Source of the DNA: a virus
Direction: 5' to 3' (one strand)
Virus record (IMG/VR): IMGVR_UViG_3300020404_001382
Coordinates: 1 to 31,407 of that record
DNA length: 31,407 bases
Shown: in pieces, positions 3,001 through 24,597 of the stretch
Numbering within the stretch: position 1 is the stretch's first letter
Layout: each line of letters begins with the position of its first letter
Made by a program: the position numbers and the translations under genes
Notes under the pieces: generated by a model
What the model was told of the DNA's origin: nothing
What the model saw: only the letters and a program-made list of their open reading frames with translations
Databases searched by the model: none

Positions 3001-4298
3001 TCTGCACTTTGTTTAATTACATCTTTATGAAACCATCTATTATAACGTGTCCAAGGATTTCTATCCGGACTAGATTTGTTTATAACAATATAATCTTTTG
3101 TGCCAGCAAAACTTTTTGCATCTCCGTATGGCACTCTATCAAAGCCGTTGCCATCAAATGGCACAAGACTATCAGAAGTAAAAATTGCAGGAACTTGTAA
3201 GTCTTCAGCTGCAATAAGTCTAATCTCATCACCTACACCCTCAACATACCAAATGCCTTCCGCATATTTTGCAGGTGTAACATCGCCAATAAAATATATT
3301 TTCATTCCATTGCTTAAAGCCCAGCCGTCTGATGTTGTATATGTTTTCTTATCCAGTATTTCTTTTTCAACATCTATTTTACTTGCAGCATCTATATTTG
3401 AAATTTGTAGTCTTGAACTTATGTTCAAATCATATTGACTTATGAAATACAATGTATCAGGTGCATTATCAGGAATAGTAAATTCTAAAATACCTTTTTC
3501 AATATAATCTTCTGCTACAAAATCGTCTTGGTTGAGTAAGACATCATCAGTATCAGGAATAAGTGTTACACCTTCAGTGTATGTTTGATTTAAAATTGTA
3601 CTATCGTCTAAACGTTCGTCTGGATCTACACCTCTGTATAATGCAATGCTTAATGGATTGCCTGGTGCATCAATTTCAAATCTATATGTTTGTCCTCTAT
3701 ATAGATTAAGTGTAGGATTTTTTGATAATCCATCTGGATGGAACAACAAACTAATATCGTTGTCTTGTTCTAGTACTTCAAGCCTATATGTACTTTCAAT
3801 AAGTTTGCTTTGTCCTCTAACTGCAATTTCTTGTGGGCCATTAGGTAACCAATAATATTCACGAAAGTTAGCAAACTTATCTAAATTAATATTTGGATTC
3901 CAAGCATAATATTCTTGTTCATTTAATGCACTGTGATTATCTGTATTTGCATTGTATGTTTTTAGAAGACCAATATAATCGTTATAATCACCATAGTATT
4001 TTGTGCTACCTAAAAAATCTTCGTATACGCTAATAGGCTCAAACTGATAATCATTTCTTGTTTTAGAAATATCTTCTACATAATTATCAGATACAGTTGC
4101 AGCTTTGGCTTCACGCTTTCCTACAAAACCGTTTATCTTTTCAATCACACCCGGATTTGTTAACTGATCTAATGTACTGCTTAAAAACTTTTTGTTTTGC
4201 GGCGTTCTAAAAAATCTAGGTAATTGTTCTACGCTACTTCTTTTAGGATCTTTGCCTGCTGGTAACGGAAATTCATTTTGATCATCATTGTATGCCAT
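1..4298 (-). CDS. Giant baseplate-type structural protein, 3' end outside window (gp7 position)
   Basis: The frame opens with ATG at 4298, overlapping the gp6 stop as TAATG, and stays open for 1432 codons to the left edge, so the C-terminus is missing. It begins MAYNDDQNEFPLPAG. The protein is rich in aromatic and beta-type sequence. It carries at least two copies of a module with the core LSNGM-(K/R)-(I/V)-x-F-I (LSNGMKIYFIGD near plus position 3300 and LSNGMRVMFIND near 2790), each followed by a V-x-x-I-x-L-I strand. It has no separate promoter and is translationally coupled to gp6. In T4 the wedge protein gp7 (1032 residues) is similarly large and acts with gp6, so a wedge or wedge-peripheral role is plausible. 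That rests on position and size, not on recognised homology. A fibre or baseplate-periphery protein is the main alternative. Confidence 0.75.
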   Translation of the reverse strand, partial: MAYNDDQNEFPLPAGKDPKRSSVEQLPRFFRTPQNKKFLSSTLDQLTNPGVIEKINGFVGKREAKAATVSDNYVEDISKTRNDYQFEPISVYEDFLGSTKYYGDYNDYIGLLKTYNANTDNHSALNEQEYYAWNPNINLDKFANFREYYWLPNGPQEIAVRGQSKLIESTYRLEVLEQDNDISLLFHPDGLSKNPTLNLYRGQTYRFEIDAPGNPLSIALYRGVDPDERLDDSTILNQTYTEGVTLIPDTDDVLLNQDDFVAEDYIEKGILEFTIPDNAPDTLYFISQYDLNISSRLQISNIDAASKIDVEKEILDKKTYTTSDGWALSNGMKIYFIGDVTPAKYAEGIWYVEGVGDEIRLIAAEDLQVPAIFTSDSLVPFDGNGFDRVPYGDAKSFAGTKDYIVINKSSPDRNPWTRYNRWFHKDVIKQSAELNGQSFNLPEENRAKRPIIEFDTGLKLFNFGAKAKDNIDLIDASTNDVKSKIEGQPGYSVDGVELSNGMRVMFINDTDSFVYGKVFEVKFFDFKGNRQISLIETADTMPLENQTVLVKDGNANAGCMYWFDGTTWKKAQEKTGINQAPLFDLCDDEGNSFGDTITYPASDFKGCRVFNYAVGEGTNDAELGFPLTYKNINNTGDIVFDFSLLKDKFTYEVSNQVFTVATSTGFLKKYEHVGETLEYINGWVKAPTNSKQYIIRRYTGQERTNNFNIDVYKESGYLNDLKVIVYVNNEVKTEGIDFNFAIDSNYDKRIQFFTDLSVDDILIIKAHSKTATKTSVGYYETPHNFERNPLNEDITQFTLGEVSDHVDSVAVEVPNFVGKQPGANNLRDLGNVKKYGRKFVQHSGPINLPLFSISNKENNLIAAINFAKNEYSKFKRAFVQEAENLNLSGSIKEQVDTVLLSLVKDKKPSMPFYQSDMLGIGANKKITHTVLDTDLKFYALSAPFTLTRLSEKAVNVYVNGEQVCNNLDFTFTSEGFVQFNNDYALAVDDVIEIYEYETTNGSYIPQTPTKLGMFPAYHPKVFVDTTYQENQTVIRGHDGSIIIGYQDYRDDLLLEFEKRVFNNLKVPYNKDIFDVYDYISGEYRNSKVATKDLNRILISDFVNWLSKAGNADYTENTFVQEAATFTYNYGFGSSKNNKPLAGFWRGIYINAYDTDSPNLRPWEMLGFSIEPSWWESKYGPAPYTSDNKVLWEDLEKGIIRSSDLIRTDKRFIRPGLSKHIPVDQSGNILSPLDSGYVNEFSFGVQNGQPFKFGDHTPAETAWRRSSEYPFALLKAIMINRPAQVLGVGFDRSRMSRNLVGQLVYNGITSQRIKLSNLLFTNTVVNEQNILTAGFNNYIYDYMASDITTQYSDFTTKLQNLQQKIAFKVGGFADKEKLKLVLDSKNPSNKGNVFVPFENYKIDLIQSSPLTTVTYSGVIIEKRSNGFKISGYD

Positions 4299-8406: not shown

Positions 8407-9705
8407 TTATCTAGGTAAAACATATGTTTTGCCGTTTATAAATTTTACTCTTTCATTTCCAAATATTATACCATCAAATAGTTTTGCACCTTCGGGTATA
8501 ATATCAGACACTGCACCGTTTACTACAGATCTAATATCGTTAATAGCATCAACTGGTGCATTTGTTAATGAAAAAATACCTCCGCTATTGGTTGTTAAAA
8601 CTTTATCTAGTTCGCTTGCAGCAAGTTCAGCACTAGCAGCTAAACTACCAAATGTGTTATCTCCAGTTTGTGGAAATATTTTTGCATCCATTTGTCTAGA
8701 TGTTCCAGCAATAGCTCTAATATTGTTTGCAGGATTTGTTGCAAAACTTATACCACCAGCTATAAGTCCTGCTGTTGTAGGATCAATGCTAGGTAAACCT
8801 ATTTTGTCTAAAACTTTAGCACCAACACCTGCAATTGAACCATCAACAATTGCTTTTAATCCTGGATCTAATCCTTTGTATGCAGTTGATAAGGTATCGC
8901 CTAAACCTTTTACGGCACCAGAAAAGTCTTGTACAATAGGACCTAAGCCTGGAATATTTGATATTGCACCACCTATGTCTTCAAACAATGCTTTACCAGC
9001 ATCTACTAGTCCGTTTGCCAATCCACCTAAAGCATCTCCGACAGCACCACTTACTGTGCTTAATACATTACCAAATACATTTGTTAAACTTGTTGTACTC
9101 AACAAATTACCCATTACACTTGGTAGTAAGTTTGTAAGTCCTTGCACTGCTCCGCCAATAATACTACTTAAACCTCCAGGTAAACCTTGCAAAAAACTGT
9201 CTGTTGTAATTTGCACAATTTCTTGTAGTAAATTTTCAATAGATGTTCTTTCAGGTAAAAAGTTTTCTTTTGGTGCAGGCGTTGTACCTGCAAAAGTTTT
9301 GCCACTTTCAGCATTAGCATTTGCAGGATTGTCTGCTGCTGGTGCGCTTTTTGATCTTCTAGCCGCTCTCAAAATTGCATCATCATAAGGTTCGTCAGTA
9401 GAAGTATTTTTTCTACCCGCTCTTAAAATTGCATCATCATATTGCTTAGGCTGTTTTCCTGAGTTTGTACCGCCGCCGATATAACCTTTACTCTGAGCAT
9501 ATCTACGTTCTCCCGGAGTAAGTTGAGCCTGTGCAGGGCCGCCGCCTATATCTTCATTAAACTGTCTTAATGCTTCAACATTCCGTGCATCTTGTGAAGT
9601 AAATCCGGTGCCTCCGCTTTTTTGTGTTGTAGTAAGTGATGATACTTTATTAGCACTGCCCTTTGTGCCAACTGATCCTTTACTTACGGGCCAAGTGTCT
9701 GCCAT
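8407..9705 (-). CDS. Unrecognised Gly-rich virion-type protein in the baseplate operon
   Basis: I do not recognise a family in this 432-residue protein. The N-terminal about 150 residues are polar and low-complexity and contain a repeated octapeptide YDDAILRA (residues 89-96 and 107-114), visible also as a DNA repeat near 9361-9445. Residues about 170-340 are a long run of Gly/Ala/Leu/Val-rich amphipathic segments (for example GLSSIIGGAVQGL and GNVLSTVSGAVGDALGGL), the kind seen in membrane-active or tube-lumen proteins. The C-terminus is compact and ends FINGKTYVLPR. The start ATG at 9705 is one base after the upstream gp5-like stop and has GAGGAAG as ribosome site. Its position between spike and gp25 suggests a hub- or spike-associated virion protein; that is inference from context. 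Confidence 0.8.
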   Translation of the reverse strand: MADTWPVSKGSVGTKGSANKVSSLTTTQKSGGTGFTSQDARNVEALRQFNEDIGGGPAQAQLTPGERRYAQSKGYIGGGTNSGKQPKQYDDAILRAGRKNTSTDEPYDDAILRAARRSKSAPAADNPANANAESGKTFAGTTPAPKENFLPERTSIENLLQEIVQITTDSFLQGLPGGLSSIIGGAVQGLTNLLPSVMGNLLSTTSLTNVFGNVLSTVSGAVGDALGGLANGLVDAGKALFEDIGGAISNIPGLGPIVQDFSGAVKGLGDTLSTAYKGLDPGLKAIVDGSIAGVGAKVLDKIGLPSIDPTTAGLIAGGISFATNPANNIRAIAGTSRQMDAKIFPQTGDNTFGSLAASAELAASELDKVLTTNSGGIFSLTNAPVDAINDIRSVVNGAVSDIIPEGAKLFDGIIFGNERVKFINGKTYVLPR

Positions 9706-21365: not shown

Positions 21366-21599
21366 TTACAGCAATGGCATTTTTGCATTTTTAGTATTTT
21401 CAATATTGTCTTTTACAATTTTAGATATAATTTCTTGATCTTCCATATCGGTATCGTATAACAATGTATTCACAGAGATACCGCCTCTCATATACCAACT
21501 GAGTCTATAGATAGTGTCTTTTATTCTTTTTATATCATTCTCAAATTCATTGGCTAATTCTTCTACAGCACTATCATCTAAGTAGATTAGCCTTTTGCG
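21366..21599 (-). CDS. 51: gp51-like tail, probably made as a -1 frameshift extension of gp26
   Basis: The minus frame ending with TAA at 21368-21366 encodes a compact acidic peptide: RLIYLDDSAVEELANEF, then DIKRIKDTIYRLSWYMRGG, then TDMEDQEIISKIVKDNIE, ending MPLL. It follows the gp26-like gene, as gene 51 follows 26 in T4, and has gp51-like character (baseplate hub assembly factor). No ATG, GTG or TTG exists in this frame between the upstream in-frame stop (21647-21645) and the conserved part. A slippery T-TTT-TTC and a downstream stem at the gp26 end would shift ribosomes from gp26 into this frame, adding 77 residues after F275 to give a 352-residue fusion. Alternatives are initiation at a rare codon (ATC 21587) or a sequencing error in the A6 run at 21600-21605. 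Confidence 0.7.
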   Translation of the reverse strand, partial: RKRLIYLDDSAVEELANEFENDIKRIKDTIYRLSWYMRGGISVNTLLYDTDMEDQEIISKIVKDNIENTKNAKMPLL

Positions 21600-21605
21600 A
21601 AAAAA
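21552..21605 (-). promoter_or_regulatory. Probable programmed -1 ribosomal frameshift signal
   Basis: On the minus strand the gp26 codons GAT TTT TTC give the heptamer T-TTT-TTC (21605 to 21599), of the X-XXY-YYZ form. After a 6-base spacer comes GGCTAATCTAC (21592 to 21582), which pairs with GTAG (21566 to 21563) and ATTAGCC (21558 to 21552) to form an 11-bp stem with one 4-base bulge. The gp26 stop lies inside the stem. Heptamer, spacer length and stem are what known -1 signals require. Confidence 0.65.
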
Positions 21606-22423
21606 TCTGTTTGATCGATTGTGATACGTATTTTGTTTTCCGCATCACAGGCAGTGCATTTTACAGTTTCTTCTGGTAACAGCCACGTTTCGTATTGCTT
21701 GTCTATATGTGCTTTGATTGCTTTGAACATATCAACATCATAGCTTTCAATGAATTCGTAAATTGCTTTTTTGTCCTTTTCAACTTCACCTTCAACTTCA
21801 ATGCTGTTGATAGAAAGCAATATTGATTTCATATTCATTTTTGCAATTGATGATAAAATTTGATCAGTAGCTTTTGCTTTTTCATCTTCGTCTTTGATGT
21901 TTGGTATTTGTATACTCAATGCTCGTTGATAACCTACTGACTCTTTTTGTAAGTCAGTATAATCAGTATATGTCAAAGGAACAAAATTTATTTTGAAATC
22001 GTTGTAAGTTATACTGTCATCAAATTCTAATCTGTTCAAATATTCGATATACTTTGAAATATCAACTTCGTATTCATTTTCTTCGTTACATTTTTTGCAA
22101 CGTTGACCAATTTGCATTTTTGGACCATAGGTTGCCATACGTATTGATAGCAACAAAGCATCAACATCTAAAGTAACCAAGCTAAATGGTTTTAGTATAG
22201 AAGGGATACAACTTTGAATATTTTTCGCAGTTGCTTGCCCGTTTATCAAAGCATCAGGTGTTCTATAAAGTATTTCATCATTAGCAGTCATACTAAACAC
22301 TGCTAAATTTGAATACGAATCTTCATATAACACATTATTGCTATAATATTTGCCTTTACTAGGCAAATCTATATAGATTTTTGGCTGTCTTGTATATTTT
22401 TTGAGAGGGCTTTCGTTTTCCAT
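21587..22423 (-). CDS. 26: Baseplate hub assembly protein gp26-like (T4 baseplate family), two CxxC motifs
   Basis: The 278-residue protein matches the T4 gp26 family: an N-terminal YIDLPSKGKYYSNN and EILYRTPDALINGQAT, then C109-KK-C112, and a second C256-TA-C259 near the end. The four cysteines could hold one or two zinc ions. T4 gp26 has 208 residues. The family is needed to assemble the baseplate hub. The start ATG at 22423 has TAGGGA upstream and a perfect TATAAATA late box at 22462-22455. Its stop is inside a candidate frameshift stem, and the -1 frame continues as the gp51-like tail. It is divergent from the tape-measure gene, which fits a role as tail assembly chaperone; that is inference. 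Confidence 0.85.
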   Translation of the reverse strand: MENESPLKKYTRQPKIYIDLPSKGKYYSNNVLYEDSYSNLAVFSMTANDEILYRTPDALINGQATAKNIQSCIPSILKPFSLVTLDVDALLLSIRMATYGPKMQIGQRCKKCNEENEYEVDISKYIEYLNRLEFDDSITYNDFKINFVPLTYTDYTDLQKESVGYQRALSIQIPNIKDEDEKAKATDQILSSIAKMNMKSILLSINSIEVEGEVEKDKKAIYEFIESYDVDMFKAIKAHIDKQYETWLLPEETVKCTACDAENKIRITIDQTDFFAKG

Positions 22424-22462: not shown

Positions 22463-22488
22463 AACCAAAAACTGTAGGAGTGTGTCTT

Positions 22489-24597
22489 TTGGCTACTAAC
22501 TTAGAAGAATTAATGACTGGTAGCGGTAATGCCTTGGCTTTCTTAGGAAGAGAAGCAAAAGGCGCAGGAAATGCAGTAGTTGGACTGGCAGGTAATTTAC
22601 TATCTGGTAGTATGAAACTATCTGATTATAGTAAATCTTTAGAAACAAACACAAAAATATTAGGTAAACTAGGCAAAGTTGTAAACGCATTAACAATGTT
22701 TGCTGAAGAAAGTTTAGCAGAATATCAAAGTTTAACAGGCATTGGTGCAAGTTTTGGCAAGCAAATGACAGAAATAAAAATTGCTGCTGCTGAACTTGGA
22801 ATGACTGTTGAACAAATGACCAAACTGTTTAAAGACAATGCAGAAGGATTAAGTGCATTTGGTGGCAGCACTGATACAGCAATCAGCAGATTTAGACAGT
22901 TTAGCAGTAGTGTTTTATCAAGTGATGTAGGATCTAATTTACGTAGATTAGGTTTTACAGTTGACGATATAAATGAAAACTTGTTAACCTATGCAGAAAT
23001 TGCTGAACAAGACAACCAACTAGAACGCAGTGTTGGTAGAGATAGAAATGCAAGTGCATTAGAGTTTGCAAAAGAGTTAGATGCACTGAGTAAACTTACA
23101 GGTAAGCAACGTGAAGATCTTGCAGATCAAATGAAAGAAGCAAGACGTCAAGGTGACGTGCAAGCATTCTTAACTGGACAAAGTGCTGATGCAAGCGAAG
23201 CACTTACCACAGGACTAACAAAAATTGGTTCTACTATGGGGCCACAATTTTCTGAATTGTTCAAAGACTTGTTAATACGTGGTGCTCCCACTACAGACGC
23301 AACTAGACAAGCATTTGTTGCATTAGGTGATAGTGCTGATGAATTTCAAGCACAAGTAGATGCATTTAGACAGGGTATGAATACAAATGATTTTAGTGCA
23401 TTTGATCAAAGTATATCAAACACACAAGCAGCATTTACAAGTTATTTGAATACAGAAGAAGCTAGACAAATTGGTATGTTGGGCAACTTGACAGGCATAA
23501 GCCAAGCACAAAACCAATTGAGAGAAGATTCATATGTGTTTGCAAACAGATTAAATGCAGCTGGCGCTGCTGCTGAAGATACACTTGTAAAATTGCAAAG
23601 AATAACTGCTGAAATAGAACGTCAACAAGAAATCCAGATGAGTCAAGAAGATCCAAGGAATCTAATTGACGAAACTATAAGATTGAACGAAGCAACACGT
23701 GAAATGGTGCTTGCAACACAACAAACAGCACTTAAAAACTTAGAAGAAATGGGCGTAAGTGCATTACAAAAAGTACAAGATGCAATGCCTAGTGTTGGAG
23801 AGATAACAAACAGTCTGGGTGGTGTAGTTGACAATTTATTTAGAGCATCAGAGAACGTAGCAAAAGTTTACGAAGACGGTAGATTGGCACTTGATCGATT
23901 TGAAAATATGGAAGTTGGCGATGTTGGAAATATGATGGTAGGCGACTTAGGAGTAGCAACAAATGAGGGTGTAAAAGAAACTGCTGAAACATTATCAAAA
24001 GAAATTACTGATGCACGAAAAGAAGTTAAAGATACTGAACAAAAAATTGCACAATTACAGTTTAGACAAACAGAAGCTACACTTGCAGGACAATCTCAAC
24101 AAGCTCAAGCAATAGGAGCAGAAATAGAACAGATGCAAGCAGAACTTTCTTCTGCCATAGTTAAAACAGGCGAAGCATTTACAAGAGCTAGAATCAACGA
24201 TTATAAAACAAGAGGATTCACAGGCAGAGGTTTTGCAGATGGCGGTTATATTAGATCAGGAGAAATTGGTGTTACAGGAGAAATGGGTCCAGAACTTATT
24301 TCTGGTCCAGGTAATGTGTTAAGCACAGAAAATACACGTAATTTAGTTACAGCAATGCGTGGATTGCGTTCACAGATTGACAATAATGCCACTTCGTCGT
24401 ATAATAGTGACACTAATACGATAAGTAATAATATATCAGAAACAATGATGACTATGCTCGAAGGTAAATTAAACACACAAAATTCATTATTAGAAAGTTT
24501 GCTAAGAGTTGAAAGTAGTGCTGCTGATACAGGAAAAAGACAATTTAGAGCTACAAAAGGATTGAGCGGCAATATGCTAAAAGGAATAGGCACGTGA
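22489..24597 (+). CDS. Tail tape measure protein
   Basis: The protein of about 702 residues has the marks of a tape measure: long helical, Gln/Ala/Ser-rich stretches with almost no Cys or Trp, hydrophobic patches near the start, and a C-terminal GGYIRSGEIGVTGEMGPEL followed by a GPGNVLSTENT segment, the G-E-x-G-P-E-L motif common near tape-measure C-termini. It sets tail length inside the tube and is the counterpart of T4 gp29. I choose TTG at 22489, eight bases after AGGAG (22476-22480). The in-frame GTG at 22480 overlaps the ribosome site itself and would add only MCL. It is the first gene of the plus-strand block and its TGA overlaps the portal GTG. Confidence 0.8.
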   Translation: MATNLEELMTGSGNALAFLGREAKGAGNAVVGLAGNLLSGSMKLSDYSKSLETNTKILGKLGKVVNALTMFAEESLAEYQSLTGIGASFGKQMTEIKIAAAELGMTVEQMTKLFKDNAEGLSAFGGSTDTAISRFRQFSSSVLSSDVGSNLRRLGFTVDDINENLLTYAEIAEQDNQLERSVGRDRNASALEFAKELDALSKLTGKQREDLADQMKEARRQGDVQAFLTGQSADASEALTTGLTKIGSTMGPQFSELFKDLLIRGAPTTDATRQAFVALGDSADEFQAQVDAFRQGMNTNDFSAFDQSISNTQAAFTSYLNTEEARQIGMLGNLTGISQAQNQLREDSYVFANRLNAAGAAAEDTLVKLQRITAEIERQQEIQMSQEDPRNLIDETIRLNEATREMVLATQQTALKNLEEMGVSALQKVQDAMPSVGEITNSLGGVVDNLFRASENVAKVYEDGRLALDRFENMEVGDVGNMMVGDLGVATNEGVKETAETLSKEITDARKEVKDTEQKIAQLQFRQTEATLAGQSQQAQAIGAEIEQMQAELSSAIVKTGEAFTRARINDYKTRGFTGRGFADGGYIRSGEIGVTGEMGPELISGPGNVLSTENTRNLVTAMRGLRSQIDNNATSSYNSDTNTISNNISETMMTMLEGKLNTQNSLLESLLRVESSAADTGKRQFRATKGLSGNMLKGIGT

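Follow-up and report, generated by a model that had tools for sequence, protein, structure and literature searches.

Vladimirov, Gautam and Davidson are said to have reported in 2022 that frameshifting is conserved in several groups of T4-like phages, with genes 26 and 51 separate in the group of T4 itself. In phage lambda, the slip site is G_GGA_AAG. The G-T frameshift is described, in the part of Atkins et al. 2016 (PMC5009743) used here, as conserved in long-tailed phages, with T4 excepted. A passage of the PRFect paper (PMC10885494), citing Vladimirov, Gautam & Davidson 2022, refers to T4-like phages that have a short gene alongside a longer, fused one, and a passage of the Adele paper (PMC12846349), citing the same study, to poly-T slip signals in T4-like TAC-N genes. 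A sequence-only reading of the DNA analysed here had proposed a programmed -1 frameshift fusing gp26 to gp51 and knew of no such report. The 2022 study, as represented in these two citing passages, is such a report, so the idea is right and, in kind, already published.

The window, that is, the whole stretch of viral DNA analysed (31,407 nucleotides, 31.4 kb), carries T4-like genes, including those for a portal (PF07230) and a gp25-like protein. Its gp26-like gene lies on the minus strand at 22423-21587 and encodes a short form (TAC-N) of 278 residues, with a TAA stop at 21589-21587. The gene ends in GAT TTT TTC GCA AAA GGC TAA, within which the slippery heptamer T_TTT_TTC (21605-21599, minus) is in phase, TTT and TTC being codons 274 and 275 (Phe-Phe). 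The last three residues of the short form, AKG, are read in the 0 frame 3′ of this site. A 6-nt spacer, GCAAAA (21598-21593, minus), separates the heptamer from a candidate stimulatory stem-loop (21592-21552, minus), whose 5′ arm spans 21592-21582 and whose 3′ arm spans 21563-21552; the gp26 stop sits within the 5′ arm.

The -1 frame is opened by an upstream TGA stop (21647-21645, minus) and continues past the heptamer as a C-terminal part (TAC-C; 21599-21369, minus) of 77 residues, which would join F275 and is followed by a TAA stop at 21368-21366. Translation in the -1 frame confirms the fusion size of 275+77 residues given by the sequence-only reading, and its valid in-phase heptamer is borne out as well. 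That reading also held that no ATG, GTG or TTG precedes the conserved peptide, and this is correct: the first possible start in the -1 frame is an ATG at 21491-21489 (minus), which falls within the conserved WYM motif, 98 nt beyond where gp26 stops. It had further named the length of the T6 run (A6 on the plus strand, 21600-21605) as a point on which the proposal could fail. The run reads exactly T6C in 11 close relatives from metagenome contigs, so the site in the window is no sequencing error.

The short form matches PF12322 (T4_baseplate) at E 1.1e-11 and 45.3 bits, the cut-off being 24.5, and phrog_150 (baseplate hub) at E 3.2e-15. A megablast search of window positions 10000-31407 against phages gave no match, a scan of genome contigs found no relative, and Rfam returned only sub-threshold matches in the 1.2 kb around the gp26-like gene. 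The protein also contains two CxxC pairs, C109/C112 and C256/C259, which perhaps form metal-binding hairpins. They are kept in 11 of 11 sequences of a close alignment; of the four cysteines, only C109 still reaches at least 90% in a wider alignment of 47 sequences.

Taken together, these features and the comparison with relatives make it very probable that the site yields a short and a long T4-like tail assembly chaperone via -1 frameshifting. The comparison provides a conserved slip site, frame and tail protein, a single family copy per searched record, and homology to T4 gp26 as well as T4 gp51. We infer the slippage, its rate and the chaperone roles as follows. Ribosomes on the gp26-like gene would occasionally slip back one base at T_TTT_TTC, about 6 nt 5′ of the stem, bypass the gp26 stop and append 77 residues. 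Two chaperones would result, corresponding to TAC-N and TAC-NC: a short one, made often, of 275 residues plus AKG, and a long one, made rarely, of 352 residues. As with lambda gpG/gpGT, the common part would coat the tape measure, while the tail of the long form would recruit tube subunits.

Relatives were collected by similarity to the short protein and comprise 20 stretches of phage records and 177 IMG/VR loci, 197 in all, which fall into 90 clusters at 90% identity and 28 at 60%. The set is redundant, several IMG/VR records being equal in length to reference phages that it also contains. The phage-record set takes in 16 of the 62 records of a tblastn search; from a group of 14 IMG/VR loci, two that end before the gp26 end (L030 and L031) and the window itself (L017) were left out. 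An in-phase -1 heptamer near the gp26 stop, together with an open -1 frame, is present in 196 of the 197 relatives, three of which are on contigs that stop within the -1 frame, and in 27 of the 28 clusters at 60% identity. Each of these sites includes TTTTTTC, TTTTTTT or AAATTTT. The comparison of junctions suggested by the sequence-only reading finds the heptamer conserved, and the proposed programmed -1 frameshift, with a short gp26 and a long gp26 plus tail, is strongly supported by this comparison.

That the arrangement exceeds chance is also indicated by a control of 136 ORFs, each belonging to T4, to the window or to a cluster representative, in which a strict heptamer had to be followed by at least 50 further -1 codons. 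A strict heptamer occurs near the end of 36 of the 136 ORFs. The 28 that pass the extension test are all of the gp26 type, and the remaining eight are without a -1 extension.

The sole relative without a slip site is Pseudomonas phage Cygsa01 (L036). A scan with the Cygsa01 protein as query found TTTTTTC in 16 of 17 loci; the exception, L218, has a 205-residue gp26-family ORF with neither a slip site nor a long -1 frame and may be of the two-gene type. Among five named phages picked for spread, the site is present in P-SSM4 and phiM12 and absent from Cba120, D509 and Acj9. As a separate observation, Cba120 (L220, near 2305), Vibrio phage D509 (L221, near 2221) and Cygsa01 (near 3307) have no canonical heptamer; in each, a -1 frame that encodes a similar tail runs uninterrupted through the gp26 stop, with NTT TTC (a bare T_TTC) immediately 5′ of that stop. 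The -1 frame of Cba120 first offers a start codon 32 nt beyond the gp26 stop, and no CDS is annotated there.

At the junction, 25 of the 28 cluster representatives share NNT TTT TTY despite variation in the residue that precedes the Phe pair (N, D, S, H, A or R). With codon frequencies taken from the gene concerned, the joint probability over the 25 comes to 10^-26.9, or to 10^-15.5 if the final base may vary, values that assume independence, are computed only on the site-bearing representatives (leaving out Cygsa01 and two A_AAT_TTT clusters) and serve as a guide, not a test. In those two 60% clusters, which hold 24 loci (L133, L135-L138, L141, L144, L146-L153, L157, L158, L163, L164, L166, L167, L169, L176 and L180), A_AAT_TTT replaces T_TTT_TTC at the same junction. 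Their gp26 frames end in NPVNFS, and a -1 slip would again yield Phe-Phe followed by the conserved tail, so that Phe-Phe occurs in these loci only in the -1 product. This substitution is apparent turnover of the slip site under selection. Sequence comparison thus indicates that selection is acting on the slip site itself, beyond that on the protein.

Conservation of the -1 frame sets in directly behind the slip: 18 of 25 sequences have R there, and 20 of 25 have L at position 4. The 0 frame is variable at position 1 and comes to its stop after between 1 and 11 residues. On the other side of the balance, among the 16, 12 and 7 sequences in which the 0 frame is still open at positions 3-5, it is no more variable than the -1 frame.

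Taken alone, the downstream stem of the window is modest. It is only mildly more stable than shuffled sequence, with z of -1.28 over 65 nt and -2.02 over 42 nt, the latter segment having been chosen to hold the stem. Across the family, the 50 nt 3′ of the site have a mean folding z of -1.48 in 27 representatives, against -0.34 in 289 windows inside gp26 (p 1.3e-4), and z falls below -1.5 at 12 of 27 junctions against 42 of 289 internal windows. Four clusters (L006, L013, L034 and L155) have a positive z at the junction. As for the particular stem drawn by the sequence-only reading, its 6-nt spacing from the heptamer and its outer 7 bp are retained, but its inner CTAC/GTAG helix is paired in only 65% of cells among relatives.

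The original inner register, with 83.6% of all cells paired, has been replaced by a three-column shift that reaches 92.7%. In five distinct sequences, the shifted register has two pairs changed on both sides, compared with one in the original, and one of its inner pairs (A-A in the window) fails in three of the five.

The rival account that has most in its favour treats the -1 ORF as a separate small gene for a free gp51-like protein, translated from its own start or by coupling at the gp26 stop, with the heptamer incidental. Such a gene is annotated as its own CDS in Phosso, 121Q, XbC2, BF and P-SSM4. In 129 of the 196 loci, the gp26 stop has a -1 start codon no more than 11 nt away, and the tail could there be initiated separately. 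Over the 20 codons that follow the slip, no start is present in 41 of the 196 loci or in 7 of the 27 representatives. The window belongs with these: its C-terminal domain in the -1 frame is conserved among relatives and no start lies ahead of it, the ATG at 21491 falling inside the domain. In L184 the -1 start comes at +89, and in PA5oct the -1 frame is without any start codon whatsoever. The conserved -1 residues, moreover, begin at the slip site itself, and a separate gene leaves the conserved heptamer unexplained. The combination that the sequence-only reading had named as speaking against it, a clear gp51 start with no slip site, is not the pattern of these relatives, although starts alone are common. 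A separate gene as the whole explanation is thus very unlikely.

Fusion by frameshifting could also arise in the transcript, through slippage of the polymerase rather than the ribosome on the T6 run, and 25 of the 28 clusters do have six or seven consecutive T. A T6 run is, however, short for this process, which normally needs a run of about nine, and at the 24 A_AAT_TTT loci the run is five T long (as read for ten of these). The enriched downstream stems are suited to ribosomal pausing. These points make transcriptional slippage less probable still. An assembly error or a broken gene, in which a single ORF has lost or gained a base, has next to no likelihood. Nothing was found in its favour, and it is contradicted by comparison, as the arrangement recurs in isolate genomes and in independent contigs, and the gp26 frame stops within 70 nt of the site in all 196 loci, so that no locus is an in-frame fusion. 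Ribosomal -1 frameshifting into a long chaperone remains the preferred reading.

T4 gp26, T4 gp51 and the short form of the window all match PF12322, the two T4 proteins with 215.6 and 177.5 bits, respectively. Against PHROG 150, which has 282 positions, the match of T4 gp26 reaches position 235 and that of T4 gp51 position 280, which identifies gp51 as the longer form. T4 has no slip site at its gp26 end; gp26 stops there shortly past the corresponding Phe pair, written TTC TTT, which is not slippery, and gp51 continues beyond. Among 20 records searched, 7 of which are IMG/VR records and possibly fragments, T4 has two PF12322 copies, Cygsa01 has one, and 17 of 18 slip-site records have a single copy. 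In the remaining slip-site record, SCTP-2, no PF12322 copy scored, though tblastn found one. One slip-site gene thus corresponds to two T4 genes. Aeromonas phage phiAS5 (L034), a member of T4's own family, the Straboviridae, has T_TTT_TTC at 3702-3708 and only one copy of the family, a combination that suggests a derived origin for the two genes of T4.

The relationship of the 77-residue tail to gp51 is less direct. Alone, the tail of the window gave no gp51 family match, and the joined protein matches phrog_150 only up to position 232 of 282, so that the tail adds nothing to the family match. By hhalign, the cyanophage tail aligns to the C-terminus of T4 gp51 with a probability of 88.6% and the Chrysonvirus tail with 31.7%; for the jumbo-type tail, the values are 23.8% to the cyanophage tail and 1.9% to T4 gp51 directly. 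The description of the window tail as gp51-like rests on its position, an ER-type motif and this chain via cyanophages.

We lean slightly towards a scenario in which the slip goes back to the ancestor of the entire T4-like supergroup, including the marine, jumbo, cyanophage and Chrysonvirus lineages. The site would have turned over under selection among T_TTT_TTC, T_TTT_TTT, A_AAT_TTT and perhaps the bare T_TTC of Ackermannviridae-like phages. T4 would have replaced it by duplication into gene 26 (short) and gene 51 (long), leaving a dead TTC TTT.

AlphaFold2 models the short form confidently, with a pLDDT of 87.3, and the C-terminal part as helical with a pLDDT of 87.9. Among predicted viral proteins, the short-form model has 67 matches at E ≤ 0.001, and several of the best 50 of these are named baseplate hub. 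No solved structure in the PDB matches it at E 0.001, and a second PDB fold search gave short helical matches. Among the 50 matches listed in each PDB fold search, no solved tail assembly chaperone, of which HK97 gp13 is an example, was recognised. When solved structures were searched by sequence, T4 gp26 matched two zinc-finger chains and T4 gp51 none.

The sequence-only reading placed the junction next to the tape-measure gene. The neighbour concerned, a divergently oriented 705-residue gene (22480-24597, plus), is a tape-measure candidate by synteny only; it has no informative PHROG or Pfam match, and its sequence does not reveal it as a tape measure. The order of portal, large structural protein and divergent gp26 recurs in ten jumbo-phage records, those of Phosso, RaK2, 121Q, GAP32, PA5oct, CBB, Hallingskeid, XbC2, XaC1 and BF; Atu_ph07 and XacN1 have different neighbours beside gp26. 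The RaK2 counterpart of the 705-residue protein is annotated as similar to a tape measure, as is the second gene after gp51 in phiM12. Elsewhere in the window, a 432-residue protein (8407-9705, minus) weakly resembles tape-measure families, with E of 2.7e-5 and 4.7e-4. It is a possible rival candidate, and low complexity may be the cause of these matches.

In the phage records examined, the joined long chaperone is absent from the annotations, and the C-terminal part appears as a hypothetical protein, as a separate gp51 or not at all. The label "baseplate hub" for these proteins would be better read as tail assembly chaperone. In titles and abstract openings, we recognised no description of the slip site in jumbo or marine phages, and we do not claim its absence from print. 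As far as can be told, the present analysis adds the marine group of the window, the extent of the site over jumbo phages and cyanophages, the variant site of the two A_AAT_TTT clusters, and statistics on codons and stems. The variants of the site form a natural series that could be used in reporter tests.

Compared with known systems, the locus resembles lambda gpG/gpGT, as described in the portion of Atkins et al. 2016 (PMC5009743) drawn on here, in having a short protein that is extended by low-level -1 frameshifting. It differs from lambda in its slip site and in that the gp26-like gene is divergent from its large neighbour. Its likeness to the TAC locus of phage Adele (Vandenendeviridae/Andersonviridae) lies, according to the corresponding passages of that paper (PMC12846349), in a -1 poly-T site near the 3′ end of TAC-N and a -1 frame that is open in 56 of 56 alleles; the Adele locus differs in its invariant motif GTTTTT and in belonging to other phage families. 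T4 genes 26 and 51 belong to the same protein family (PF12322) as the window gene, but T4 has two family genes where slip-site records have one. The locus shows two solutions to a single need: one gene that carries a slip site, or a pair of related genes.
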